DNA from: a virus
Virus record (IMG/VR): IMGVR_UViG_3300023180_000262
Coordinates: 1 to 30,667 of that record
Strand: one strand, 5' to 3'
DNA length: 30,667 bases
Shown here: positions 766-25,527 of the stretch, piece by piece
Numbering within the stretch: the first letter of the stretch is position 1
Layout of the letters: each line of letters opens with the position of its first letter
The notes under the pieces: model-generated
Databases searched by the model: none
The model's input: only the letters and a program-made list of their open reading frames with translations
Told to the model about the DNA's origin: nothing
Translations under genes and position numbers: made by a program

Positions 766-1983
766 TTAACCTACTAAACTTTGTCCTGTAAATACACCTG
801 ATACATCTTGCTTAAACACACTTGCCATAGCACCTAACGCTTGGTCTTGATATGTAGGGTCATTTTCATATTGTTTTCTTACTTCTCCTGCAAACAATGT
901 CATATCTCCACCGACTTTTTGTGATATAATGTCCACATTCTTTTTGTCTTGATTAGACAATGCACTCTTACCAGTTATAGATTGAAATGTTCTATATAGT
1001 GGTGCTGACCATAGTTCATGTTGACTACCTTCATAATTAGGAAATAATTTATCGTGTGCTTTCTGCAACTGTTCTATAATTACTTCTCTATTTGTAGTGA
1101 CACCTTCACCTTGTGCAGCATCAGCACGTAACATAGCAGCGTATTGTTCTATAACGCCATTATCTTCAAATGCAACTGCTGCATCTACACCAAGATATTT
1201 TGTAACTAAACTTTTAGCATCAGACATACCACTTTTTGTAGGATTAATCTTGTCAATATATCCTATGTAGTCTTGGTTCATAGCACTTACACCACCTGCC
1301 ATAGATAATTTATATGGGTCTATTAAGAAAGATATTGTTTGTGCAGCTTCTGCTGTAGTTAAATTACCTTGTGCAATATCACTTGCTAGTTCTCTAACTA
1401 AATCATCAACACCTTCTCCAGATATACCTAACTGTGCAATCTGTAGCTTTAGTGCTGTGTAGTTATCTTTAACTAGCTCTGCTGCTTTAGTTGGATTTGT
1501 ATATACAAGCTGAATCCAATCTCTTTGTTCTGGTGTGTGGTCTTTAAACCAAGTTAAATTTTCTAAGTATGGAGTTATGTCCTGTCCAGTAATTGCACCA
1601 TATGCAAATAACTGTTGTACTTCATCATCTAAATACCAAGTCTTACCAAATATTGTTGCTTTCTTTTGTAAATCATTTTCTACGTTTTCTAATAACCAAT
1701 CTATATCTGTCTTAGGATTTTCAGGGTCAAGAAGTTTTAGGTCTGATAAGTTGAACATAGGAAAAAATGCATATCCATACTTATCTGTAAATGTTTGTTC
1801 TGTATACGCAACTGCAGTATCTAATGCACCTTCTGCAAAACTTTCTGGTAAATCTACATCTACTACTAATGGCATAACAGCACCACTTGTAGTTGTGTAA
1901 TTATACACAGCATAGTACCTTCCATTAACGAAAATTAATTCATCTGGAACTTGTAGTCTACTACCTTCTTTAAATATTGCCAT
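766..1983 (-). CDS. Unrecognised virion-operon protein, 405 aa
   Basis: This is a complete frame, and its ATG overlaps the stop of the upstream 1661-residue gene by one base, so the two are probably translationally coupled. The N-terminal 60 residues look like a small beta domain (LIFVNGRYYAVYNYTTTSG, then a run of V/D strands). The remainder is largely helical, with Ala-rich helices such as LTTAEAAQTISFLID and AYGAITGQDITPYLENL. No signal peptide or membrane segment is seen. I recognise no family. Its place among giant internal proteins and ahead of a wall-binding protein suggests a minor structural or ejected protein; this is inference only. Confidence 0.7.
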   Translation of the reverse strand: MAIFKEGSRLQVPDELIFVNGRYYAVYNYTTTSGAVMPLVVDVDLPESFAEGALDTAVAYTEQTFTDKYGYAFFPMFNLSDLKLLDPENPKTDIDWLLENVENDLQKKATIFGKTWYLDDEVQQLFAYGAITGQDITPYLENLTWFKDHTPEQRDWIQLVYTNPTKAAELVKDNYTALKLQIAQLGISGEGVDDLVRELASDIAQGNLTTAEAAQTISFLIDPYKLSMAGGVSAMNQDYIGYIDKINPTKSGMSDAKSLVTKYLGVDAAVAFEDNGVIEQYAAMLRADAAQGEGVTTNREVIIEQLQKAHDKLFPNYEGSQHELWSAPLYRTFQSITGKSALSNQDKKNVDIISQKVGGDMTLFAGEVRKQYENDPTYQDQALGAMASVFKQDVSGVFTGQSLVG

Positions 1984-4900
1984 TAGTCATCTCTATTATA
2001 AACATTGTTTGCTAACTTTACAGTCCTATCTATTATCACATTAGCACTAGGGTTATTGTTTAAATACCCTGTAAATACTTTATCATAATCAATAGAGTTC
2101 TGCATAAGGTCTAGTTTTTGGCTATCTGGTATATTACTGTAATAAATATCATTTCTCATATCTATATCACCTACATCTTCTATGTAACTTTCTTCTAAAG
2201 CATCACCATTAGATGCTCTAGTCATAACATCTATAGCTGTACTCCATATTGCATTACCTAATAATTCTGCAGGTGACCTTGAACCTGCTTCTTCTAACAT
2301 TTCTAATAACTCACCACCATAATCTTGCCAAAAAGTTTCTTCAACCAGTTGCTTTTCCCATTCTTCACCATTAGCAAGTATCTCATTTCTACGTGCATAT
2401 ACTTGATATAGTTCAGGTAACGATAGTGCAGCAGTTCCTAACAAGTTAAATATTTCATAAAAAGACCATATTGCTGCTGCAGTTGCAACACCTGTACCAA
2501 GAGTAATAGCACCTGCTGCTGCTGCTACAGTTGCAGCTTTTGAAAACGCTTTGTTAATTAATGTTTCACCTATGTCTAATGTTTTCCAACCTACTCCTAA
2601 AGCCTTACCTACTTTGCTTTGTGCAAATGATTTCATCATCTTACGTAAAGTTGCTACATCAGGTGTTAATCCAGTAGGAACTCTTTCTTGATTATATGGA
2701 ATACCATAATAACCAATATTGTTACTACCACCTACTGCTCTTCCATAAGTATAAGAAGCTCTTACACTATCAATAGTTTCATTACCATACACTACTGGTT
2801 GAACAGGATTTACTACTGCATCATATCTTGGTGCGTTATTAGGATATAATTCCTCAATAGATATGTCGTAATCTAATATATTGTTTAAATTAGTTTCAAT
2901 TATTCCATTTTGAAAATGCTCATCTGGTGCAATAATAGTTATATCTCCAACTATGAAATTTGATGGTATATCTCTTAATTGTTGCCGACTAAGATTAACT
3001 GGTGTTGTACTGCTATCTGGTGCTGTAACATTAAATATAGGTTCTTGACCAGTTCTTTTTATAATTTCTATCTCTGGTCGTGTTGTTCCATCAATAGGAC
3101 TTGGACCACGCAAATTTATCTTTACAGCACCTACTGTTCTATTGTCAACCATATCATATAAATTATCTAATGCAGTATTAAGTTTTTGTACATCAATTCC
3201 CTCATTACTTGCAAACGCTTCTATAGGAGGAGTAATGTTTGCTTGTGAAAATACTGGTTGTGGAGATATATCTCTAGGAGTTCTAGTTTCTGAACTTGTA
3301 TTTCTAACCATTTCTAATTCTTCATCTATAACAAATTGTCTGTTTTGTATTTCTTCATTAGAAGTTTTTCTATTTATATATAAAAAATTATCTGATGCTC
3401 TCAATCTTAAAGAACCATCATTTGATTCATAAGCAACATTAAAAGCAGCACCCACTCTACCAGTAGGATGTATTCTTGAAGATATTGGATTATCTCTTTC
3501 TTGTCCTGAAAAACCATCTCTTACTTCTATTCCTAATTCTTTCATCATATGAATAAAAGAACGATTTATTATATTTGTTGTAATTCCACTTCCTGTTTTT
3601 GTAGATTGCACATTAGAAGTAATAGATGCAACCACATTATTATTTACATCTAAATGATTTGTTACTTCTATAGTTGCATAATGTTTTGTTAATGTTAAAT
3701 CTCCATTTGTATTTTCTACATCATATATAAAACCAACTTCAAAATAATCTTTTGGTCCAAATCTGTCTGATAATGTTTGTCTTGTTCCAACGTGTTCAAT
3801 TTCTACAACTAAAAGATTTCTATCAGCACCACCAAATAAATCTGACTCATTAAATAAAGTTTCTGCACTTCTTGTAAAGTAATGTTTAGCTTTATCAGAT
3901 AATATAACTTTATCTTGAAATGAACCACCATTTATTTTTCTAAATGCTTGATTTAGTTCAGTACCAAAAATATCTTCATTATTAAAATATATACTACTTA
4001 ATACTGCTAATTGACCATCTCCTAATAACTGATTTCTATACCAACCCTGATTTTCAAATAATGGGTCTAAATCCTCAAACATATCATATATAGAAAATGC
4101 ACCTGCTTCGGCATCTAATATATTAATATTGCCTTCACTTATTCTTGCTAATACAGCTCTTTCACTAAGATTATCTTGGTTTAACAACTGTGTTACAGGT
4201 CTACTATCTGTAATTGTTGAACCTCTAGTTGATGGAGATGTTGTTGTATCTGGTGTTGTTGTTTCTGGTGTTGTTGTTTCTGCTGCTTGTCCAAATCTTG
4301 AATCTACCCATTGTAATATACCTTGTGTTTGTATATTTGCTTCTGAACCTGCTAAACCATCTATCTGTGACAATAATGATTCTCTTGTAAACATATTTAG
4401 ATTACTTTCTCTCATTGTGTCCGAAGGATATGTTTCAATTAAATCTTCTAAGAAGTAATACATAGCTTCTCCATTATTATCCATAAAGTTATTTAGTGAA
4501 CCAGTTTTAATAATTCCAGTATCATCAAGTTGAGAATGTACTACTAAATCATTTGTATAGACTAAACCTAAATTTTCAAATATATTTTGTAGCTCTGTTA
4601 CATCTTCCATAGGATTTAAACCTGTAGAAGTTACCATAGCTTCAGTACGCATAAGTAGTTGTGCAAACATTTGTGGGTCTACCTCATATGAAAGTGCATC
4701 AAACAAACCATAAATATCATCTTTTTTTCCGAAGTATTTTATTTTCTCTAGTTTTTCTGGGTTATCGTAGTTATCAGATAAAAACTTAATCATTGGATTG
4801 CCACCAATATTTTTTCTTCCAGTAGCAATATAAAGTAATTCTTGATTAAGTTTACTTCTTTTTACATCAGTCAAATTTTCTAAATCTACTGATGCTAATA

Positions 4901-6968
4901 AATTCAACATAGATACGTGTCTAGGAGATTTTAATATATTGGTTTGCTTTGGTTTAATTGCAAACTCTGCATCAGTACCATCCAAAGGACTACCCCATAA
5001 TGATTGAATTACTCTTGGCAATCTTACTTTAAATTCACCACCTACTCTACGAGTTTTCCATTCATCTACTTTTTTCCACAATGGTCCTGGATATCTCACC
5101 ATAGAACTGTGACTCCAGTTAGTAAATTTTGTATCTACATCTAATTCGGTAAAATATTCACCTGTAAATATAAATCCACCATTTTGATACAAATTAGCAA
5201 CTCTATCATTTATAGGAGAGTTAGTTAATATTACAAAGTCTGCATCAGCTACAGTTAATAAACCATGAAACCATTCTTGGCTTTTTATTACACCTGCTTT
5301 TTTAACTTTTTCAGCTAATGACATTGTAGATTCTCCTGTAAATATAGAATATTCTGATGGCGAAATGACATTAGGATAATATCCAGTTACTGAACCTGGA
5401 TGTGTAGATAAAAAGTTAGTAGTGATACTTGCACTTCTTTGACCTAAAATATCTCTACTACTACGAATACTATTTTCGTACTGTCTAGCATATGCAGAAT
5501 CTGATTCAAAAAAACTAAGTATATGTTTTTTACCATTTACATCTTGATACGTTAAAGCTAGTACATAGCTTGGTTTTTTTTCTAATGTTGTATATCTTTC
5601 TCCAAATGGTTTTGCTAATATTTTTTTAATATAATCTGGAAAACCTTTCCAATGAACTGCCATATTGGTATAGTCACCTTGAACTGGAGATTTCATTTGA
5701 CCTATAATTTCAAAACTATAATCTCCACCTTCAAGAACTGTATCTAAAGCTGCAGCTACTTCTGAATTGTATTTAGCATTTTGAAGTATAGAACCCATTT
5801 TTCTATGGTTTTGTTTATTAGTAGTTAGTAATGGTCCATCTTCTCCATATTGTTTAAATCTTATATCTGTTAAATTTTCAAATCTTCCATCTAAAAATTC
5901 TGCAACTCTTATTTTTAATGCATCTTTATCTTCAGGAAAAATAATTAAATCGTGTGTGATATTGCCTGTAGTGTTATTTAGTACATTTTTTTCAACATCA
6001 CGTATGCTGTTTTGTCTTTTAATTTGGTTTTCATCTTCAAGAAACCCACCTTCTTCATCCATAAATGCAGGTCTTTCTGTATTAGGGTCTAATCCCCTAA
6101 ATACTATAGAGTGTTTGTTATCTTTAGAATATCTTTTTAATATCTCAAAAAACCTCTCTTCAATTTTTTTAAAATATATTCCATCATCAGTAGTAGGATT
6201 ATTATTGACATTAAATTTATCTACATCTATGTCAAACTTATCATATATTCCTTTATATCTTGGTGAGTTCCTAGGTGATGTTGCAACAGATACAACATCA
6301 TCTGTTCTTAAAGATAAAGTTAAAATATCATTATCTACTGCATATTTAAGATAGCTAATCATATCTTCTCTAACACTAATACTTATTGCATCTGACCTAT
6401 TTATATAATCAACTAAACCTTGATACTTAGAAACATTAATATCATACCCTTCTAAAAACTCACCAAATTCTTCTAAGTTTCTTGAACTGTAAGAATTAAG
6501 TATATTTGCATTATCACTACCTACTGAAGTTTGAGTAGGAGTAGCATCAGGAACATCTGGAGTTTCAGTAGTAATTTCTGGTGTACTGTTTGCTTCCCTT
6601 TGAATAGAAGCAATTTGTTCTGGGTTAGTATCTAAACGATTATAGAAAGCACCTAAATCACCTGAATCTATATTTTGAAATAAAAACTCTCCTAAATTAT
6701 CAACTAAACCTTCTGTACTATAACCTGCATTACTAGCGATTGTTGCTATTTTGTCTACTATAGCATCAATTATTTCATCACCCCAAGTAGTAATACTTGA
6801 AGATGGAAATACTTCAGCAACTGATTGTGCTATAGCATTTGATACTGGTCCATCAAATTGTCTAATTCTATCAGCAGGTGTTAAATCTTCTAATCTTGTA
6901 TCAATGTTTTCAGTAACAAAACGTGTAACTAAACCTAATACTTGTGATTTAAAAGCATCAAAGTTCAT
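1983..6968 (-). CDS. Giant virion protein, 1661 aa, two large halves joined by a Thr/Pro hinge and a C-terminal hydrophobic segment
   Basis: This is one uninterrupted frame. Roughly residues 1-880 form a first half, with an early disordered stretch (TPEITTETPDVPDATPTQT near 130-150). A hinge of repeated TTTPE/TTTPD units lies near residue 900 (bases about 4215-4290). The second half reaches an Ala/Gly-rich hydrophobic stretch at about 1465-1510 (GAITLGTGVATAAAIWSFYE) that could span or insert in a membrane. Part of the first half (SIVFRGLDPN about 280-290, then a TTNFLSTHPGSVTGYY block near 515-530) loosely resembles the Arg and STS motifs of ADP-ribosyltransferases. A segment in the second half (TKTGSGITTNIINRSFIHMM, then GIEV) loosely resembles a GNAT acetyl-CoA loop. 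Neither match is secure. Its position next to the lysozyme-like gene and another giant supports an internal or ejected virion protein. Its start overlaps the 59-residue gene by four bases (ATGA). Confidence 0.75.
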   Translation of the reverse strand: MNFDAFKSQVLGLVTRFVTENIDTRLEDLTPADRIRQFDGPVSNAIAQSVAEVFPSSSITTWGDEIIDAIVDKIATIASNAGYSTEGLVDNLGEFLFQNIDSGDLGAFYNRLDTNPEQIASIQREANSTPEITTETPDVPDATPTQTSVGSDNANILNSYSSRNLEEFGEFLEGYDINVSKYQGLVDYINRSDAISISVREDMISYLKYAVDNDILTLSLRTDDVVSVATSPRNSPRYKGIYDKFDIDVDKFNVNNNPTTDDGIYFKKIEERFFEILKRYSKDNKHSIVFRGLDPNTERPAFMDEEGGFLEDENQIKRQNSIRDVEKNVLNNTTGNITHDLIIFPEDKDALKIRVAEFLDGRFENLTDIRFKQYGEDGPLLTTNKQNHRKMGSILQNAKYNSEVAAALDTVLEGGDYSFEIIGQMKSPVQGDYTNMAVHWKGFPDYIKKILAKPFGERYTTLEKKPSYVLALTYQDVNGKKHILSFFESDSAYARQYENSIRSSRDILGQRSASITTNFLSTHPGSVTGYYPNVISPSEYSIFTGESTMSLAEKVKKAGVIKSQEWFHGLLTVADADFVILTNSPINDRVANLYQNGGFIFTGEYFTELDVDTKFTNWSHSSMVRYPGPLWKKVDEWKTRRVGGEFKVRLPRVIQSLWGSPLDGTDAEFAIKPKQTNILKSPRHVSMLNLLASVDLENLTDVKRSKLNQELLYIATGRKNIGGNPMIKFLSDNYDNPEKLEKIKYFGKKDDIYGLFDALSYEVDPQMFAQLLMRTEAMVTSTGLNPMEDVTELQNIFENLGLVYTNDLVVHSQLDDTGIIKTGSLNNFMDNNGEAMYYFLEDLIETYPSDTMRESNLNMFTRESLLSQIDGLAGSEANIQTQGILQWVDSRFGQAAETTTPETTTPDTTTSPSTRGSTITDSRPVTQLLNQDNLSERAVLARISEGNINILDAEAGAFSIYDMFEDLDPLFENQGWYRNQLLGDGQLAVLSSIYFNNEDIFGTELNQAFRKINGGSFQDKVILSDKAKHYFTRSAETLFNESDLFGGADRNLLVVEIEHVGTRQTLSDRFGPKDYFEVGFIYDVENTNGDLTLTKHYATIEVTNHLDVNNNVVASITSNVQSTKTGSGITTNIINRSFIHMMKELGIEVRDGFSGQERDNPISSRIHPTGRVGAAFNVAYESNDGSLRLRASDNFLYINRKTSNEEIQNRQFVIDEELEMVRNTSSETRTPRDISPQPVFSQANITPPIEAFASNEGIDVQKLNTALDNLYDMVDNRTVGAVKINLRGPSPIDGTTRPEIEIIKRTGQEPIFNVTAPDSSTTPVNLSRQQLRDIPSNFIVGDITIIAPDEHFQNGIIETNLNNILDYDISIEELYPNNAPRYDAVVNPVQPVVYGNETIDSVRASYTYGRAVGGSNNIGYYGIPYNQERVPTGLTPDVATLRKMMKSFAQSKVGKALGVGWKTLDIGETLINKAFSKAATVAAAAGAITLGTGVATAAAIWSFYEIFNLLGTAALSLPELYQVYARRNEILANGEEWEKQLVEETFWQDYGGELLEMLEEAGSRSPAELLGNAIWSTAIDVMTRASNGDALEESYIEDVGDIDMRNDIYYSNIPDSQKLDLMQNSIDYDKVFTGYLNNNPSANVIIDRTVKLANNVYNRDD

Positions 6969-8538: not shown

Positions 8539-9980
8539 TAAAAGTTCTCCTCAAATTGCATAAAGTTTCTTGTAAACTCTACTGCTGCTGCAGACCTAGC
8601 TGATAATTCTTGACTAGCATCTATTCTACCTGCTTCTAAATCATCTACTATTTTACTTAATTCATATCTTACATCAATAGGTTGTAATAATGGTTTACCT
8701 AATTGCTTTCTTGCTTGTTCAGGAGTTGGTGTCATTAAATTAAAATTACTATATGTATATGGTCCTATTTGTGTAGGTGCAGTTCCTGTATCATTTAATG
8801 TACTTAAACCAATTACTTCTGATAAAGTAGGTTTATTTTTTTCTATCTCTACTTGTCTTGCTGCTGCATCTTTTTGTAAATTAGAAAATATTCCTGCATA
8901 CTTTTCATAATCTCTAGCTGTGGCATATATTCCTTTTTCAGCAAACAACTCATCTACTACAGCTTTTACTTCTGCTTCTGTAGGTGGTACTACTTCACTA
9001 CCATATTGTTCTAAACCTTCAACTAATACATTTGTTCTTTCTAACTTTTCTGCTGCATAAGATAAATAAGGAGTTAACTGACCCCATAAACTTGGTGCAT
9101 TTTTATCTATCAAACCACTACTTGGCATTAAAAAATTATCATCATTTGCTTGTGTCATCAACATAGCAACAAAATCTATTTCGTTTCCTTTAGCAGAAAA
9201 GTTTATAACACCAGGCACAAAGTCGTATGATGATGGGTCTAAACCTAAATTAAATAATTCTTGTTGTATTTCAAATATTGCATTAGATGATAAACCTTCA
9301 AATAAAGCTGCAGCAGACCCTCTTCTAAAATGTGGTCTAATAGGGTTACCATTACTGTCTAGTTTTAGTTCTCCTGTTTTACCATCTACATAAAAATCAT
9401 TTTCATCAATAGGTATATTAGGACCTGTGTAATAGTTTCTTGATTGGAAAAAAAACTCTCCAGTTTCAGGGTCTATTTTTTCTGCAGGTGGAACACTTAA
9501 CCCTAGTACTTTTTGATTTTCTGGACCAAAGGTTTGTGTTTCAGTTGATGTTATATTCCAATTAAATACATTATCTTTTATTTCCCCTACATATCCTAAA
9601 GTAACATCAGGCACAAATAGACTTAAAGTAAAATTACCTTGTGTTCCTGATACCTCTACTTCTCCTGCTAACTCATTTAAAAAGCTAGATAAAGTAGCTG
9701 TATAACTATTCCAATCTGTAGGATTTTCTAGTTCACCTTTATACTTTTCTAATATAGGCTCTAAATCATAACCTAATCTTAATTTAGGATTACTAAGTAA
9801 ATAACTTAATGTATATTCCTCACCTTTTGTACCAAATTCTGCACTTGAAACTCTAATAGGTATTTGTAATATTCTATTTACATCTTTAATAAAATCAGAT
9901 AAAGGCTTTTCATAATCTTGGTTTTTATCAATATCAGCTAATAAATTTTCTATTTGATTTTTTGATTTCTCTGTTGTCAT
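8538..9980 (-). CDS. Unrecognised virion-operon protein, 480 aa
   Basis: This complete frame overlaps the giant upstream gene by four bases (ATGA) and the lysozyme-like gene by one. The first 60 residues are helical and charged. The middle contains Thr/Asn-rich beta stretches (NFTLSLFVPDVTLGYVG, NWNITSTETQTFG). The C-terminus is helical and Ala-rich (ASQELSARSAAAVEFTRNF). I see no enzyme motif, signal peptide or membrane segment. The neighbourhood (2051-residue giant before, wall-cutting protein after) suggests a component of an internal or ejection assembly. Confidence 0.7.
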   Translation of the reverse strand: MTTEKSKNQIENLLADIDKNQDYEKPLSDFIKDVNRILQIPIRVSSAEFGTKGEEYTLSYLLSNPKLRLGYDLEPILEKYKGELENPTDWNSYTATLSSFLNELAGEVEVSGTQGNFTLSLFVPDVTLGYVGEIKDNVFNWNITSTETQTFGPENQKVLGLSVPPAEKIDPETGEFFFQSRNYYTGPNIPIDENDFYVDGKTGELKLDSNGNPIRPHFRRGSAAALFEGLSSNAIFEIQQELFNLGLDPSSYDFVPGVINFSAKGNEIDFVAMLMTQANDDNFLMPSSGLIDKNAPSLWGQLTPYLSYAAEKLERTNVLVEGLEQYGSEVVPPTEAEVKAVVDELFAEKGIYATARDYEKYAGIFSNLQKDAAARQVEIEKNKPTLSEVIGLSTLNDTGTAPTQIGPYTYSNFNLMTPTPEQARKQLGKPLLQPIDVRYELSKIVDDLEAGRIDASQELSARSAAAVEFTRNFMQFEENF

Positions 9981-12900
9981 TTCAAATACCTTCTGTTATC
10001 TAATTCTTTCCAGAAACTTCCTAAATACATATCAATCCAGTTTGTATCTTCATACTCTAACGCTAATTCTCTAGCATAAGCATCTAGTTCTTCACGTATA
10101 TCAGCAATATTACCTGATGTACCACTTAGTGTAGCAGCAACTTTACCCTGAATACCACCTTTAGGAACTCTTATTGATTCTTTTGAAAAACCTTCTATAT
10201 AAAATAAACCACCATTTAATACAGTATCTATAGCTTTATCATATTCTTTAAAGAACTTTTGTAATGGTACAAATTCAGGTGATTCTTTAAGTAATGGTTC
10301 ATTTTCCCAATCTCTTAGTTCTAATATAATCTGGTATTTATCTGCCATAAGTACAGCATCGCCTAAACTACCATAAGCAATAACACCATATTCTTCTTGA
10401 AGTTTTGTTTTCCTAGCAGAGTATGCTTCATTTCTTGCAGTAGGTGTTAATGATTTATCGTTCTTTAGTTCCTCTTTGTATTTTTCTAATTCAAATTGTA
10501 ATAATGATTGTTGTACTGCACGTGAATATGCATTAGGGTCTAATGTTTCTGCACCTGCCATAAATGCAGGTAACGAGAACTCATCATCAACTTTATCAGG
10601 AAATAAATATATAGCTGTATATGGTTTTCTTTCAATCAACTTTTGATTTTCAATTTGCTGCCAAAACATATAAGATTCTTTCTTAACAGGAAATCTACCT
10701 TGTTTTGCACTTGATGATTGTCTTAATGGAATTGGATTTAAACCAAATCTTTTTTCAAATTGTTGTGTTGTTATTGTATAGTCAAACTGATTAGCTTCTA
10801 ACATTTGTTGATACTTTTGTGCTAATACTTGTATTGTCCACCAACCACCATTCTTATCTTGTATTTCATATCTTGGTTGTATTGATGTAGGATAAGCAGC
10901 TTGTGCAGAACCTCTAATTAACCAATGTGTAGCAGCAGCTTTTTCTGCTTCTACCATAGCAAGTTTTATAGATTCTTCATCTTCAGGTGTCCATTTACCT
11001 GCGTAGTAATACAAAGTAAATATATCCATTACTGTTCTTGAATATGATGCATTTATTTCTTCTGTAGCTTCTTGTGATAATGGCATAGCTTTTAATAAAC
11101 CTTTAAACCAAGATGGTAAAAATGGTTCTACCAACAATTCTTGTATGCTAGTAGTTCCTGGTTGTTCAAAATTACCTAATACAAAATCTGTTAAGAATTT
11201 AGGTGCAGTAGCAATTTTTGTTAATACTTTAAATGGAACAGTAACTATTGGTCCAAAACCAGGAGAAAATCCATTAGCAGATATTAAGTTAAGTCCTTCT
11301 AAGAAACCATAAGGTTTTACTCTTACACCTTGTTCAGTTAAATCTTCTCCAAGCAACCCAGTTTGTAATGGTGCAAAACCAAAAGCACCTGGTATTGCTG
11401 ACAAACCAAATGTCATAACATTCATAACATCTACATAATTAAATAACAACTCTCCTGTTATTGGGTCAGATGTAAAAAATGCATTATCTGTATCCCAAGG
11501 TTTAGCTTCTTTACCTCTATCTATTGCTATACGAGTTCTATTAAATTTTTGTGGATTTTCTAATGTTAACTTACCCCAAGTTTTTAATACTTCTTGAAAT
11601 ATTTCAGGGAATGGAACATATGATGCCATAACATCAGATAGTACGTGTCTTTCTTGACTAGCATATAAAAGATTTTGAACTTCTTCCATAGCTTTATATT
11701 TAAGTAATGTTTCTGCTTGTTCTAAAGTTGTAATGCTTCCTTCTGATGCAGGTTCTTTTGCTTTTTTAAGTAAATTTAAATATAGCTCACTACCTTCTGT
11801 CCAAGTCTTTGCACCTATAACAAATTCTTTTTTAACTTCTGGTGTCATAAATGGCATTAATTCTTCAGCTAATGTATAAAATGTCCACCTGAACATTGGG
11901 TCACGATTCAAATAATCAGATGGTTTAGCTAACAAAAGTGAATACATTGAACCTAATGCATCATCCCATTTTTGTATAGCTTGTTCTACAAGTTGACCTG
12001 ATTTACTTAAATTAGGATTATTATTAAAAGCAACATTACGTGGACCTAAATCCATTTTTACAACTTCATCATCAAATATCTTTTTAATTTGGTCATAAAA
12101 TTTTCCAAAGTATCTTTCTGTTTTAGATGCTTGTACTGCATTTTTTTGTGCTAACTCTAACCAATCTTCATCATCAACAAAACCACCATTAGCTATAAAT
12201 TCACGTATTTTAGAAGCACCCATGTTTAAATCTACTTCGTAATCAGGATATACATATTCTCCATTTCCATTTGTTAATAATTCTCTTGCCTCACGTTCTG
12301 TAATTTCTTGACCATTACGTAAAATTTTATTTGTAGGGTTTCCTTGTAACCTACCAATTTCCCATTCAGCAGTTTTTAAATATTTTAACAACTGGTCTTT
12401 ATTTTTTAATACTGCACGTGCATCAGGGTCATCACTTCTTTTAATTAAATCATCTATGTATTTTTTACCTTGTGTAGTATTTGTAAAAAACTCTAATGCT
12501 TTATTAGCACCATCTCTTGCAACTATTACAAACAATGGGTCATTTGCTCTATTTAAAATTTCGTGTATAAACCCTCTCCACCATCTAGGGTCTATTGTTG
12601 CATTACCATCAGCATCAATAATATATTTATCTACATTAATAAAAAAATCATCTACTGCGTTTCTACCTCTGTTTTGTGGTTTTAAAACTTTCAATAATGT
12701 TTGTTCAGACATTGTATTTATATATTGTGGTGTAGTGTTAAAAAACGTTCCTGAAGGTGCAGCTTGTGCATAACCTGTTTTTTTACTTACAATTTTTCTA
12801 GCTGTTTGAAAATTGCTATCAAACAAATACTCCATAACTTCTTTAATTACTGGTGAATCAAAATCAACATTATCTATACGTGGGTCTGGTTGTCCATATA

Positions 12901-15900
12901 CAGGTACTTCTATAAATTGAAAAGCAGGACTTTCATTAGTATTTAATACTTTAGATAATTTTCTAATAGGATGCTCTTTAGGCAATATATCAAGTATTTC
13001 TTTTCTCATGTGTATTTTTGGTTGATGTGCTTTTATAGCAATAGACAAAGCATTTCGTATGTATGTTTCAGCTTGTGCTAATGTTTTGATTTCATCATAA
13101 TCACCAAGATTTACAACAACATCTAATATCAAATTGTTTTCTACAATATTTACAGAAACACCATGATTAGCTTTTAGAAGTTGTGGTTCTATAGATGGAT
13201 TTGTAACATACTGTCTTACTAATTTTCCTACATCTTCTATATTTTCAAACTCTAATATTTGTTTATATTTTTTATTAGGTACTACAGATATAGCACCTCT
13301 TTTAAATCCATTATTAATTCCTGCAGATGGATTTAAAAATGGATGTAAAAAACCACCTGCAACATTAACACTTTGTACATCACCAAATCCCATATCTTCT
13401 AATTTGTTAAAATTTAATAATGATTGTCTTTTTAGTTTTTTTAAATCTCCTACTATTTCATCAAATGCAAAGTCTGTAGCACTATTGCCATCAATAGCAT
13501 ATTGTATAAATGAATCTCCAACTTGACCTGATGCATTTGTATTTAATCTAAGAGTTTTCATTATTTGTTGTATTTGTTCATATTTCAAATTTTCTATTGA
13601 TTTTTTCATATCAACATTTCCAATTAATTCTGCTACGCTATCTATCTCATCAGAGTTAATTCTTGTAGCAAATAATTGTTCTCCTAAATTGTCAAGCATT
13701 TGCACAAATACAGGGTCTGATTTATCTAAATTTAATTTATCTACAACTCTAGGAAATGGTCTTGCTTTCAATGAAGCTAATAACAAAGGGTGTCTAAACA
13801 CACTAGGACCACCATACATAGCAATACGTACAGCTTCTTCTGGTGGTACACGTAATGTTAAAGCAGGTCTAAGCATCCAAACTGGTTTTAATGCACGTTG
13901 CATAATGAAATCAGAATAAATATATTCTAAATAACTCTTAGGTGCTAACGTTGTATTTTTTTTAGCGTAATTAGTTTTTAATCCACGTGTAGGTATTTTT
14001 GCTTGTTGCATAATTTTTTCCATTAAAGAGTAATCTTTTTTACCCCAAGTAGTTGATAAAAACTTTCTTAAACCACTATTACTTGGACCAACCAATCTTC
14101 TAAATTTAGACAATGCTCTAGCGAGTTCGTTGTAGTCTGTTAATGGAACAAAGTTATCAGCAAACTGTCCAATAGAAAAAGCAGTAGGAACTGCAACTTC
14201 AATAGCTTCTAATATGTTTCCTTCTTCATCTACTCTGTCAGGTCTTAATTTATACTTAGTACCTGGAAAAGATAATGGCATACCATCTGAATCATATAAA
14301 TATTTTCTTTTCTCTACTAACTCATTATTAACAAAATCCATAACTTCAGTAATTAATTCTTCATCATCTTTTAAATCAGGATTATCTTTAATTACTTTAT
14401 CTTTCATTTTGTTATTGACTTTTCTAACAATTTTTACAATGTCATCTTGATTTTTAGAATTTAACAATTCATTAATTATAAAATCTCTACCTAGTTGGTC
14501 CTCACCCATAGCTATTAAAACGCCATCTATATTTTCTATTGTTTCTGCAATATAATTAATAGAAGCAAATTTACTTGGTGCTAAATCAAATAGTCTTTTA
14601 ACTCTTTGTGGTAATGCATTTTTTAAAGAACCTCCGATACCGATAATACCTCTAAATGGGTCATTTTTAGGAGTACCAAGTAAAGCACCTATGCTATTTC
14701 TTAATGGTGCTATATCTACTGCTTTACCACCAAACTTATACGCTAATTGATTTGCCATTTCAGCAACAACAGATTGTCGCATAGGTAATTTATTTATAGG
14801 TGTTAATGTAGCTGCTTGTGCAATTTCTTGACCTACAAAAGTACCTGAATAAGGTGCAATCATTAAATCTGATAAATCACCATTTTTAAGTAATGAAGTA
14901 ACTATCTCTTTCATAGATTCTTTATTTTTTACTTTTGCTAATAAATTTAAAACTCTAGTATCTACTTTTGAAAATGTTGGTATGTCTTTTAATCTTGCAA
15001 CAGATTCATTTACAGTTAATGCTTCTATAAATTTATCTCCCCATTTTGAATCTAGAATTTGTTCTGCAGTTTTACCAAAAGTCATTCTTCTAGCTTCTTT
15101 ACCTGCTTTTGTTGGCTTTAATGTATTTAACGCTCTAGTAATAAAAGCAGCATCATCTACGTATTGTGCAACTTCTGCTGCCGATACAACGCTTCTACCT
15201 GCAGTTTTTACTGCACTACCATAACCTAAAAGTAGGTTAATTGGGTCTGCACCTAATCTAAATGCACCATCAATAATTGTAGATGTTAAAGCATATGATA
15301 TTTCTCCTTCTTGTGAAAACTGTGCTGCAACTATACGACCAGGAGATATTGGTATTCTCTCTCCTGTTTTAGTTGTATATTTATATTGGTATTCATCACG
15401 TTCAAATTCTTCTGTTATTGGATTACCATAAACAGCAGCAGCAGCTTCATATGCTTCTGTTGGAGATTTACCTAATTTAATCTGTTTACTATATACATCT
15501 GTATCTTCTAACGCTATTGAATTAGGTAAAATTCCAACACCTAAGTTAAGTGGTTTACCTGCATCTATTTCATTTAATGCTCTACGAAATTCGTTTTCTC
15601 CATATGCTTCTTTTGCTTTGTTGTATGTATCATTAAAATCTTTTCCTAAAGTTGCCTGTCTTGCATTTTCTGTCCATTTTTCTGTAGGTAACAAACCTGA
15701 TATCAAGTTAGCACCAACTGCAAAAGGAACTGGTGTATCTGTTTCTTGTGCAGCTACTACAGATGATTTAAAATTTCTTGATATATTTTGAAATGCACTA
15801 TCCATAGCTAAGAAACCTAACTGTGTTGCTCTCTTAAAACCACCAACATTTGTATTAATTTTTACACGTTGTTTCTTTTCCATAGCTTTTTGTTGTGTCT

Positions 15901-16132
15901 GTGCAATTTTTAGTACATCTTCATCATCTGCTTTTAATCCCATTAATGGCAAATAAGCAACTAATCTTCTATCTAAAGATGGATATGTGTATGCCATATC
16001 ACGCATAGCTTCTACTAGTTCAGGAGATATAGCTCTTTCAAATTGAGATATTTCATCTAAATTTTTAGATGTAGATTCTGCTAAACCTTGTTTGAAATAT
16101 GAAGGTACAAAAAAATTAGATTTGTAATCCAT
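9977..16132 (-). CDS. Giant virion protein, 2051 aa (probable internal/ejected protein)
   Basis: This is the largest gene in the window and has no internal stop. The protein is mostly helical and highly charged, with many Lys/Glu-rich helices. A few hydrophobic patches occur near residues 1560-1640 (VMTFGLSAIPGAFGFAPL, then PIVTVPFKVLTKIATAP). Around residue 750 there is an Arg/Pro-rich core with MLRPALTLRVPPEEAVRIAM and YGGPSVFRHPLL. I recognise no catalytic motif. Proteins of this size between the portal and a lysozyme-like protein are typical of the DNA-ejection (internal core) proteins of podovirus-like phages; that assignment is by context. The start ATG lies one base after the stop of the 138-residue gene. 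It might equally be a tape-measure-like or polyvalent delivered protein. Confidence 0.8.
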   Translation of the reverse strand: MDYKSNFFVPSYFKQGLAESTSKNLDEISQFERAISPELVEAMRDMAYTYPSLDRRLVAYLPLMGLKADDEDVLKIAQTQQKAMEKKQRVKINTNVGGFKRATQLGFLAMDSAFQNISRNFKSSVVAAQETDTPVPFAVGANLISGLLPTEKWTENARQATLGKDFNDTYNKAKEAYGENEFRRALNEIDAGKPLNLGVGILPNSIALEDTDVYSKQIKLGKSPTEAYEAAAAVYGNPITEEFERDEYQYKYTTKTGERIPISPGRIVAAQFSQEGEISYALTSTIIDGAFRLGADPINLLLGYGSAVKTAGRSVVSAAEVAQYVDDAAFITRALNTLKPTKAGKEARRMTFGKTAEQILDSKWGDKFIEALTVNESVARLKDIPTFSKVDTRVLNLLAKVKNKESMKEIVTSLLKNGDLSDLMIAPYSGTFVGQEIAQAATLTPINKLPMRQSVVAEMANQLAYKFGGKAVDIAPLRNSIGALLGTPKNDPFRGIIGIGGSLKNALPQRVKRLFDLAPSKFASINYIAETIENIDGVLIAMGEDQLGRDFIINELLNSKNQDDIVKIVRKVNNKMKDKVIKDNPDLKDDEELITEVMDFVNNELVEKRKYLYDSDGMPLSFPGTKYKLRPDRVDEEGNILEAIEVAVPTAFSIGQFADNFVPLTDYNELARALSKFRRLVGPSNSGLRKFLSTTWGKKDYSLMEKIMQQAKIPTRGLKTNYAKKNTTLAPKSYLEYIYSDFIMQRALKPVWMLRPALTLRVPPEEAVRIAMYGGPSVFRHPLLLASLKARPFPRVVDKLNLDKSDPVFVQMLDNLGEQLFATRINSDEIDSVAELIGNVDMKKSIENLKYEQIQQIMKTLRLNTNASGQVGDSFIQYAIDGNSATDFAFDEIVGDLKKLKRQSLLNFNKLEDMGFGDVQSVNVAGGFLHPFLNPSAGINNGFKRGAISVVPNKKYKQILEFENIEDVGKLVRQYVTNPSIEPQLLKANHGVSVNIVENNLILDVVVNLGDYDEIKTLAQAETYIRNALSIAIKAHQPKIHMRKEILDILPKEHPIRKLSKVLNTNESPAFQFIEVPVYGQPDPRIDNVDFDSPVIKEVMEYLFDSNFQTARKIVSKKTGYAQAAPSGTFFNTTPQYINTMSEQTLLKVLKPQNRGRNAVDDFFINVDKYIIDADGNATIDPRWWRGFIHEILNRANDPLFVIVARDGANKALEFFTNTTQGKKYIDDLIKRSDDPDARAVLKNKDQLLKYLKTAEWEIGRLQGNPTNKILRNGQEITEREARELLTNGNGEYVYPDYEVDLNMGASKIREFIANGGFVDDEDWLELAQKNAVQASKTERYFGKFYDQIKKIFDDEVVKMDLGPRNVAFNNNPNLSKSGQLVEQAIQKWDDALGSMYSLLLAKPSDYLNRDPMFRWTFYTLAEELMPFMTPEVKKEFVIGAKTWTEGSELYLNLLKKAKEPASEGSITTLEQAETLLKYKAMEEVQNLLYASQERHVLSDVMASYVPFPEIFQEVLKTWGKLTLENPQKFNRTRIAIDRGKEAKPWDTDNAFFTSDPITGELLFNYVDVMNVMTFGLSAIPGAFGFAPLQTGLLGEDLTEQGVRVKPYGFLEGLNLISANGFSPGFGPIVTVPFKVLTKIATAPKFLTDFVLGNFEQPGTTSIQELLVEPFLPSWFKGLLKAMPLSQEATEEINASYSRTVMDIFTLYYYAGKWTPEDEESIKLAMVEAEKAAATHWLIRGSAQAAYPTSIQPRYEIQDKNGGWWTIQVLAQKYQQMLEANQFDYTITTQQFEKRFGLNPIPLRQSSSAKQGRFPVKKESYMFWQQIENQKLIERKPYTAIYLFPDKVDDEFSLPAFMAGAETLDPNAYSRAVQQSLLQFELEKYKEELKNDKSLTPTARNEAYSARKTKLQEEYGVIAYGSLGDAVLMADKYQIILELRDWENEPLLKESPEFVPLQKFFKEYDKAIDTVLNGGLFYIEGFSKESIRVPKGGIQGKVAATLSGTSGNIADIREELDAYARELALEYEDTNWIDMYLGSFWKELDNRRYLK

Positions 16133-24076: not shown

Positions 24077-24106
24077 TATAAAAAAAAATATAAAAAAAAG
24101 ACAACA

Positions 24107-24112
24107 TATAAT
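24107..24112 (+). promoter_or_regulatory. -10 box of the probable structured RNA
   Basis: A perfect TATAAT, preceded by a long A-rich tract (24078-24100) that could act as an UP-like element. A start near 24119 would place it at the edge of the first hairpin of the RNA. Confidence 0.5.
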
Positions 24113-24690
24113 TACAAGTATGGTAAGGTACTTGTAGAAAGGAAATGATGAAAGGAACGCATAAGGTTGGAAACACTATCAATAGCAATAGTGATTTGAA
24201 ATACCATATAAACAATGTAATTCCAGTTTGGTACGCTAACTTTCATCTTTTCTTTAACGTAATCCCCTTATTACGTAAAGCTACTTATGAAAACAAACTA
24301 CTTGACCTCTCGCTTAGACTGGTCAAAGTATGATAACGAACTAAGGCATACACGAAGTCAAGTATCTTGTTCAAATTTGTAGGTAGCTTGTAGCACATAA
24401 AGGTATAAGGTTTGAAATTTGAGAGTACAATACAAAACCTTTGAGGCACTTAGCCAAGATTATACCAACTCTCTGTGTGTTACAAGCTATCTATAACTTA
24501 GATATTGTATCGTGAGATACAAGATAGTCGGACAACGAAGTCTAATTAACTTCGGCTTGTAGTGAGTAAATAGAAACGCAACGACTTCACTACCAAAAGT
24601 TAGTAGATAGCAACACAAGTTAGTTAGTGAGTAGGAGTTCTTTTCAATGCCCTGTTTAGTTCAACCGAAAGCTAACTAACTTTCTTTTTG
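24113..24690 (+). ncRNA. Candidate large ornate non-coding RNA, about 570 nt, with pseudoknot and terminal T-tract
   Basis: About 580 bases hold at least nine perfect or near-perfect helices: TACAAGTA/TACTTGTA (24113/24129), CACTAT/ATAGTG (24174-24193), ACGTAAT/ATTACGT (about 24257-24276), and TACTTGAC/GTCAAGTA (24299/24357). Next is a 16-bp stem, GGTAGCTTGTAGCACA (24382-24397) with 24476-24491. It encloses GGTATAA/TTATACC, GGTTT/AAACC and GAGAGT/ACTCTC, the last crossing the others as a pseudoknot. Further 3' are TTGTATC-GTGA-GATACAA (24505-24522), CGAAGT/ACTTCG (24536/24549), TAGTGA/TCACTA (24560/24587) and an 11-bp AAGTTAGTTAG/CTAACTAACTT (24617/24672) followed by TTTCTTTTTG. A -10 box precedes it and a promoter for the next gene follows. 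Size, phage setting and architecture recall the GOLLD and ROOL classes of giant phage RNAs; class membership is inference. Confidence 0.7.
24148..24333 (+). CDS. Doubtful 61-aa frame within the structured RNA region
   Basis: ATG 24148 has AGAAAGG five bases upstream, like real genes of this phage, which is the only strong argument for coding. The peptide (MKGTHKVGNTINSNSDLKYH at its start) is unlike its acidic or Cys-rich neighbours. Its DNA contains several perfect inverted repeats, one of which (24299-24306 with 24357-24364) pairs across the stop codon. It may be a short gene embedded in the 5' part of the RNA, or chance. Confidence 0.25.
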   Translation: MKGTHKVGNTINSNSDLKYHINNVIPVWYANFHLFFNVIPLLRKATYENKLLDLSLRLVKV

Positions 24691-24710
24691 TACACATATA
24701 TTTACAGATG

Positions 24711-24719
24711 TGATACAAT
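24711..24719 (+). promoter_or_regulatory. Extended -10 promoter of the second rightward early operon
   Basis: TGATACAAT is an extended -10 (TGn then TACAAT). The predicted start lies about 15 bases before ATG 24742. TTGTAC at 24688-24693 is a possible but widely spaced -35. Confidence 0.5.
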
Positions 24720-24741: not shown

Positions 24742-25527
24742 ATGTCAAAAGGAATAGATGAGTTTGACAACTCTTGGTATGAGATTGATGACCAGTTTGA
24801 CACTATTGCAACTAACAATAGTTTTAAAACATCTTGGACACCAATGTCATTTAAGAAATCAAACGTAAACAAACAAGCAAACGTTACCTTTATGGGAGAT
24901 AGTGTGCTTGATTGCAAAGCATATACTGGTACAGGCAAAGGTACTGTTGACTATGTAATCAAACAAGCACATGGTGACTATAAAAATAACACGAGAAATG
25001 TTAACGACATAAGCGTAGATGGTTTTACAATTCCAGATTGTATTGATGTTGTTAATGATGTTTATGGTAAAGCAGTAGTTATTAGTGCAGGTGGTAACGA
25101 CTTACTTGCAAAACTATCTTTACTCAAATCAAGTACAGATAACAATGTAACTATGGGTATTATGAACGCAGAGTTAGACAAGCTAAGTAATGCATACGAA
25201 ACTTTACTACACCAACTAAGACAGGGTGGTAGAAAGTTCTTACTCATTACTTGTTACGAGGGTAACCTAGCTTACAATCCACAACGTTTTCATAACGTAG
25301 ATAATATTGCACTATCAATAGTATCAATGTGGAACGACAGATTATACAGACTAGCTAACGTTCATAACAATAAAAGCAACAGAGTAGGACAGCAGTTTGA
25401 TGTACTAGATACACGTACATTTATGAAACCTAACTGTTTCTATAACGAGATAGAGCCAAACGAAATTGGTGCAAAACGTATAGCAACACAAATCAACAAG
25501 TGGTTGTACGCAAATCAAGTATGGTAA
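24742..25527 (+). CDS. SGNH/GDSL-fold protein with altered catalytic triad, 261 aa
   Basis: ATG 24742, behind AGAAAGG, is preferred to an upstream TTG that would overlap the promoter. The fold shows block I FMGDSVLD (Ser54), block III SAGGNDLL (Gly118, Asn119) and block V EIEPNEIGAKRIA. SGNH esterases normally read DxxHPN in block V. Here the Asp is Asn235 and the catalytic His is Glu238, so the usual Ser-His-Asp triad is incomplete although the nucleophile and oxyanion residues remain. It may be a binding-only relative, or use Glu as base. There is no signal peptide, so it acts in the cytoplasm or is carried in the particle. It leads a long early operon and overlaps the next gene by one base. 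Confidence 0.75.
   Translation: MSKGIDEFDNSWYEIDDQFDTIATNNSFKTSWTPMSFKKSNVNKQANVTFMGDSVLDCKAYTGTGKGTVDYVIKQAHGDYKNNTRNVNDISVDGFTIPDCIDVVNDVYGKAVVISAGGNDLLAKLSLLKSSTDNNVTMGIMNAELDKLSNAYETLLHQLRQGGRKFLLITCYEGNLAYNPQRFHNVDNIALSIVSMWNDRLYRLANVHNNKSNRVGQQFDVLDTRTFMKPNCFYNEIEPNEIGAKRIATQINKWLYANQVW

Follow-up and report, generated by a model that had tools for sequence, protein, structure and literature searches.

The described systems nearest in kind to the RNA reported here are GOLLD, ROOL and OLE, which resemble it in size, ornateness and phage origin, according to the excerpted text of the source (PMC12286853). In those excerpts GOLLD is likewise a large, many-stemmed, pseudoknotted phage RNA, known from marine metagenomes among other sources and variable in its 5' part, and ROOL and OLE are large ornate bacterial or phage RNAs of unclear function; no combinatorial cassette layout is described there for ROOL or OLE (PMC12286853). 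GOLLD has one conserved 3' region, whereas the RNA studied here has cassettes on a repeated common handle. This cassette architecture is found neither in Rfam nor in the literature that we searched, the open-access PMC, where such arrays are undescribed.

Two other systems share part of this layout. ToxI, the RNA of the type III toxin-antitoxin system ToxIN, consists of small pseudoknots repeated in tandem along a single transcript, which bind their target; its repeats are near-identical and adjoin the toxin gene. The arrays described below would likewise line up small pseudoknots along a single transcript, but their inserts belong to more than 100 sequence families held in a common helix, and the repeats of an array come from different families, which speaks against a type III antitoxin RNA. 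The neighbouring genes scanned with general Pfam and PHROGs profiles showed no toxin domain. In the gene-cassette arrays of integrons, variable cassettes are exchanged at common boundary sequences. The likeness is one of analogy only, because here the cassettes are RNA domains rather than genes and the boundaries are the arms of an RNA helix.

A structured region upstream of an early phage gene

The window, that is, the whole stretch of DNA analysed, is a viral record of 30,667 bases from IMG/VR, from an uncultured, apparently marine phage. The region studied (24107-24690) forms a unit with a high degree of structure and essentially no coding content; upstream of it lie small early-type genes that end at about 24076. 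Its plus strand folds at -147.8 kcal/mol, against a mean of -120.7 for shuffled sequences (z -3.95), and 0 of 100 dinucleotide shuffles are as low, as the initial annotation had expected of a structured RNA. The minus strand is equally stable (z -4.93), so the strand cannot be chosen from energy alone. Along the plus strand, a promoter-like block is followed by module M1, a CCCCTT hairpin, module M2, a handle helix with its insert M3, and modules M4 and M5:

about 24099-24117, plus strand: promoter-like block AGACAACATATAATTACA, 18 nt, with the -10 hexamer TATAAT at 24107-24112
24145-24333, plus strand: 62-aa ORF, ATGATG after the SD-like AGAAAGGA; overlaps the 5' module and is not required by the model
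24147-24247, plus strand: 5' module M1, an H-type pseudoknot in the closing stem GATGAAAG/CTTTCATC (24147-24154/24240-24247)
24168-24172/24221-24225, plus strand: M1 helix H2, crossing H3; compensatory changes in relatives
24174-24179/24188-24193, plus strand: M1 helix H1; compensatory changes in relatives
24202-24206/24229-24233, plus strand: M1 helix H3, crossing H2; compensatory changes in relatives
24257-24276, plus strand: hairpin ACGTAAT-CCCCTT-ATTACGT, from the sequence; CCCCTT-loop hairpins with other stems lie in first slots of other arrays
24278-24288, plus strand: first B handle 5' arm, AAGCTACTTAT, able to pair with 24380-24389
24289-24379, plus strand: linker (B-slot) module M2, with stem ACTTGAC/GTCAAGT, hairpin GTATG/CATAC and the self-complementary octamer GACTGGTC
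24380-24397, plus strand: A handle 5' arm, TAGGTAGCTT+GTAGCACA, pairing with 24476-24493; covariation
24398-24475, plus strand: A-slot module M3, with GGTAT/ATACC, AAGGTTT/AAACCTT and a crossing GAGAG/CTCTC
24476-24493, plus strand: A handle 3' arm, TGTGTTAC+AAGCTATCTA; covariation and right-arm search
24494-24603, plus strand: linker (B-slot) module M4, with three covarying helices including a GUGA-capped hairpin
24604-24613, plus strand: second B3 arm variant, TAGATAGCAA, from the sequence
24617-24689, plus strand: 3' module M5, with stem AAGTTAGTTAG/CTAACTAACTT around a conserved AGTAGG...GCCCTG...ACCGAAAG core, then TCTTTTT (terminator-like)
24742-25527, plus strand: downstream early gene, GDSL-like hydrolase (Pfam PF13472, sub-threshold, E 3.6e-4)

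The inverted repeats reported in the initial annotation are present: the central stem (24380-24397/24476-24493) has 18 bp including G-U pairs, the 16-nt stem (24139-24154/24240-24255) is 88% complementary, and there are 8-bp stems besides the perfect 11-bp outer stem of M5 (24617-24627/24672-24682). The first hairpin listed there (24113-24136) is not conserved in relatives and overlies the probable start site, and it was dropped. The -10 box claimed for the 5' end falls inside the 18-nt block, which recurs as an exact 18-mer in 26 viral contigs, mostly 5' of arrays that differ in their next module; no canonical -35 element matches this TATAAT. At the other end, the M5 stem runs into a T-tract (24683-24689), which recovers the 3' stem and T-tract of the earlier description, and the promoter that had been placed directly afterwards corresponds to a promoter-like site of the GDSL-like gene's own (24691-24719).

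It is exceedingly improbable that the region is coding sequence or a set of decayed genes. The 62-aa ORF has an SD-like leader, and its seven distinct copies are all in frame, with domain lengths (94, 97, 103 and 106) that preserve the frame. Against this, its codon changes are nonsynonymous in 17 cases and synonymous in 7, the ORF is missing at 11 of the 22 places that carry the same promoter block, and no long ORF crosses the remainder of 24107-24690.

The window gave no Rfam match at the gathering score and nothing meaningful at E ≤ 10, the GOLLD, ROOL and OLE models included, and 14 related loci gave no matches. The top weak matches in the window are to eukaryotic snoRNA or miRNA models and are therefore ascribed to chance. 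There are no tRNA genes in the window or in 21 array loci. Membership of GOLLD was thus rejected for want of both a covariance-model match and nearby tRNA genes, and membership of ROOL or OLE for want of a model match in the window or related loci. The compensatory changes expected of any structured noncoding RNA are present in the proposed helices. The proposal of a large ornate noncoding phage RNA is supported, with covariation now added; its placement in GOLLD, ROOL or OLE fails on the Rfam results, the tRNA context and the architecture, and the description as a new relative of that class is fair only loosely, in the sense of another large phage RNA.

Covariation and strand of the handle helix

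Relatives were retrieved by protein-guided searches that led to loci with the same downstream genes. When the region is compared with these relatives by blastn, the ends are conserved, the middle is a mosaic, and short sequences are repeated several times per locus. Read side by side, the relatives prove to be chains of cassettes, each delimited by TAGGTAGCTT-GTAGCACA ... TGTGTTAC-AAGCTATCTA. Each cassette is a handle helix of about 18 bp (TAGGTAGCTT+X8 ... X8'+AAGCTATCTA) capped by a structured insert that varies; the outer 10 bp are constant and the inner 8 bp covary freely.

The pairing of the arms is supported by several comparisons. Arm pairs that were not filtered for pairing are complementary at 8 of 8 inner positions in 177 of 202 cases. 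Among the unique non-canonical arm pairs, 33 of 49 match at 7 or more of the 8 positions, whereas 1000 re-pairings gave 4.8 such pairs on average and 11 at most. In an alignment of 50 distinct handles, which was preselected for pairing, unlike the 202 arm pairs, 14 of the 18 pairs are changed on both sides, double-change cells number 158 versus 36.5 when shuffled, and the signal is lost if the partner is slid by 1-3 columns. Covariation in relatives, one of the checks proposed in the initial annotation, is strong for both the handle and the module helices.

Strand-asymmetric G-U pairs occur at handle pairs 3, 4 and 14, and several handle positions exchange G-U, A-U and G-C with the G on the 5' arm. 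The RNA sense is therefore the plus strand, and a DNA palindrome is disfavoured, which agrees with the earlier reading of the G-U pairs as marks of RNA rather than of DNA-binding palindromes. A DNA-level element (a recombination, replication or packaging site), with palindromes that only resemble RNA, is very unlikely: the handle repeats do resemble recombination boundaries (L010/L020, see below), but the asymmetry and exchanges just described, the pseudoknots, the flanking promoter- and terminator-like signals and the coding-strand position all argue against it.

Each half of a handle is also able to pair with the half across the linker, in a second register. The observed covariation is reached by 0 of 500 shuffles for pairing around inserts and by 3 of 500 for pairing around linkers, where the effect is much smaller. 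The B-type helices (AAGCTA.. with the next TAGGTAGCTT) were considered as the main handle and, because their covariation is much weaker than that of the A-type, they were kept only as an alternative register, which may form too, particularly in the first slots.

Modules and cassette exchange

The crossing helix of the earlier description is the H2 x H3 pseudoknot of M1, and it is supported by covariation. H2 occurs as TGGAA/TTCCA, AGGAA/TTCCT and CAGGAA/TTCCTG, and H3 as TACCA/TGGTA, AACCA/TGGTT, GTGCA/TGCAC, GGCAG/CTGCC, GGCGA/TCGCC and ACCTAG/CTAGGT. These helices were located in each sequence separately because the MAFFT alignment misplaces helices of unequal length. M1 also occupies A-slots in four other loci (L090, L092, L098 and L150). 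M2 (family F2) is present in 12-14 loci, in A and B slots alike, with an outer stem that varies compensatorily; its octamer GACTGGTC has the variants GAGTACTC, GACTAGTC and ACGTACGT, all self-complementary (window; L146, L188, L204), a pattern that could be expected of an intermolecular kissing contact. Near-identical copies of M3 are found in L020, L026 and L145, that of L020 with a compensatory change from G-C to A-U. The 19 pairs of M4 are 100% paired and 11 are changed on both sides, in a set of five sequences only. The M5 core occurs 42 times, as a terminal or internal module, and its internal stem has 25 distinct versions; the stem of the GCCCTG module is formed in 26 of 34 cases (shuffled mean 10.7, maximum 18).

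Some motifs recur across modules. CCCCTT(T) loops are frequent in first-slot hairpins (window 24257-24276; L102, L155, L187) and form the complement of Shine-Dalgarno sites of the AAGGGG type. A UGCA loop caps hairpins with differing stems in 7 unrelated A-slot insert families (e.g., L175, L197, L078), against 0.64 expected from shuffled inserts. Related modules in L109 (3228-3362) and L123 (reverse strand, near 3898) end in a hairpin resembling a tRNA T-arm (GTAGGTTCAAATCCTAC in L109); ARAGORN and Rfam detected no tRNA or tmRNA in the arrays, these hairpins included.

The four compensatory variants of the M2 octamer and the over-represented UGCA loops could mediate kissing contacts, which the excerpted source describes in the cages of GOLLD and ROOL (PMC12286853). 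They would suit a homo-oligomeric structural RNA in which the cassettes serve as the units of a large assembly made of RNA alone. We consider this unlikely: the number and identity of modules vary freely between loci, unlike those of a cage of fixed stoichiometry, and there is no sequence relation to GOLLD, ROOL or OLE.

Across the 145 non-redundant viral loci we counted 273 handle slots, with 1-5 at each locus. Their inner handles comprise 56 distinct pairs, and their inserts, of which 239 are unique, are 27-221 nt long and fall into 110 sequence families. Modules also make up the linkers between handles, and about ten families serve both as inserts and as linkers. An exact search for the 17-mer of the handle left arm retrieved at least 119 IMG/VR stretches, and the right arm, searched for independently, turned up 73, many of them new. 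In 22 longer phage contigs the matches lie mostly at one or two places per genome (reversed-pattern control, 0). The same 17-mer has one match in 257 Gb of cellular genomes, on a contig whose surrounding genes are of the same phage-like kind; a first scan of cellular genomes with a 21-mer gave none. The sole cellular match (L216:5389-5480) belongs to a MAG labelled Gammaproteobacteria, and since the contig resembles these phages it was probably mis-binned.

Comparison of the loci points to exchange of cassettes. One clean indel separates L010 from L020; it comprises a single unit of handle plus linker and lies between direct copies of the handle. The M3 insert of the window is one base off (99% identical to) those of L026 and L145, whose GDSL protein is only 62% identical, yet L116, with a GDSL gene 94% identical to that of the window, has a different insert. 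The movement of cassettes is therefore not tied to that of the genes next to them. Judged from these products, homologous recombination at the handles would be the simplest explanation. A caveat is that the loci are metagenome assemblies, although the 21-nt repeats are shorter than the reads.

Genomic setting and proposed function

The arrays sit on the coding strand, upstream of genes that are GDSL-like in 23 loci and that precede an AAA+ ATPase (PF07728) in about 43. This position would suit cis-acting leaders, in which the cassettes are 5' UTR elements controlling translation, processing or stability of the downstream early operon and the modules are regulatory domains of the riboswitch or protein-binding type. 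In 47 of 158 arrays the last cassette ends within 60 nt of an SD sequence plus an ORF of at least 40 codons, and L174 has a lone cassette between a promoter-like sequence and a gene. However, in the clade of the window the gene has a promoter-like site to itself, downstream of the stem and T-tract, a terminator-like hairpin lies within 200 nt in 22 arrays, and modules are common to phages whose downstream genes differ. A leader function is possible, and only a little less likely than the decoy or scaffold favoured below.

The host may be actinobacterial, a weak suggestion that comes from the closest named relatives of the terminase, mostly Streptomyces phages, and of the AAA+ protein, phages of Gordonia, Brevibacterium and another actinobacterium, at 24-30% identity. 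The actinophage marker WhiB was found in 0 of 22 contigs, and a nucleotide search of named phages gave chance-level matches only.

It is well supported, from comparative sequence analysis, that the plus strand of the region specifies a structured noncoding RNA, about 570 nt long and composed of interchangeable cassettes, and we hold this architecture on its own with high confidence. Each handle helix would present one variable structured insert, the linkers being modules too. Handles differ very little in sequence, whether compared within one phage or across phages, so that recombination between them could add, delete or swap cassettes and leave the rest of the fold undisturbed. Transcription would start early, from the RNA's own promoter, and stop at the 3' stem and T-tract. 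The modules may together offer host factors a multivalent set of binding units, as decoys or as docking sites; counter-defence or host takeover would be the most plausible role, and cassette exchange would diversify the repertoire. Taken as a whole (architecture, early transcription and multivalent decoy or docking function), this statement is one towards which we lean slightly.

Any account of the function has to cover an early locus that is fixed in place and has a very high turnover of modules, a shared helix that presents folds unrelated to one another, and arrays that either end in a terminator or abut a gene. We favour, tentatively, a recombination-diversified multivalent decoy or scaffold RNA acting early in infection, since a repertoire shaped by an arms race would be expected to show a high turnover of modules at one constant early position. 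No module was matched to a host target in the Rfam, tRNA and tmRNA searches. More speculatively, phages might draw on a common stock of over 100 RNA modules that pass between genomes by way of the shared handle, each disarming or recruiting a different host factor; such a stock would be to RNA what gene-cassette or anti-defence islands are to genes.

Proteins and genes are well known to be put together combinatorially from independent domains, RNAs hardly so. If more than 100 structured RNA modules are indeed swapped naturally on a common helix, they would supply natural folds as a ready-made library, might represent a new layer of conflict between phages and their hosts, and would serve as a model for the evolution of large RNAs. 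Because only the short handles recur, such elements are missed by whole-RNA covariance-model searches.

Elsewhere in the window, the minus (late) strand has two very large ORFs, one of 1661 aa (1983-6968; no PHROGs match) and one of 2051 aa (9977-16132).
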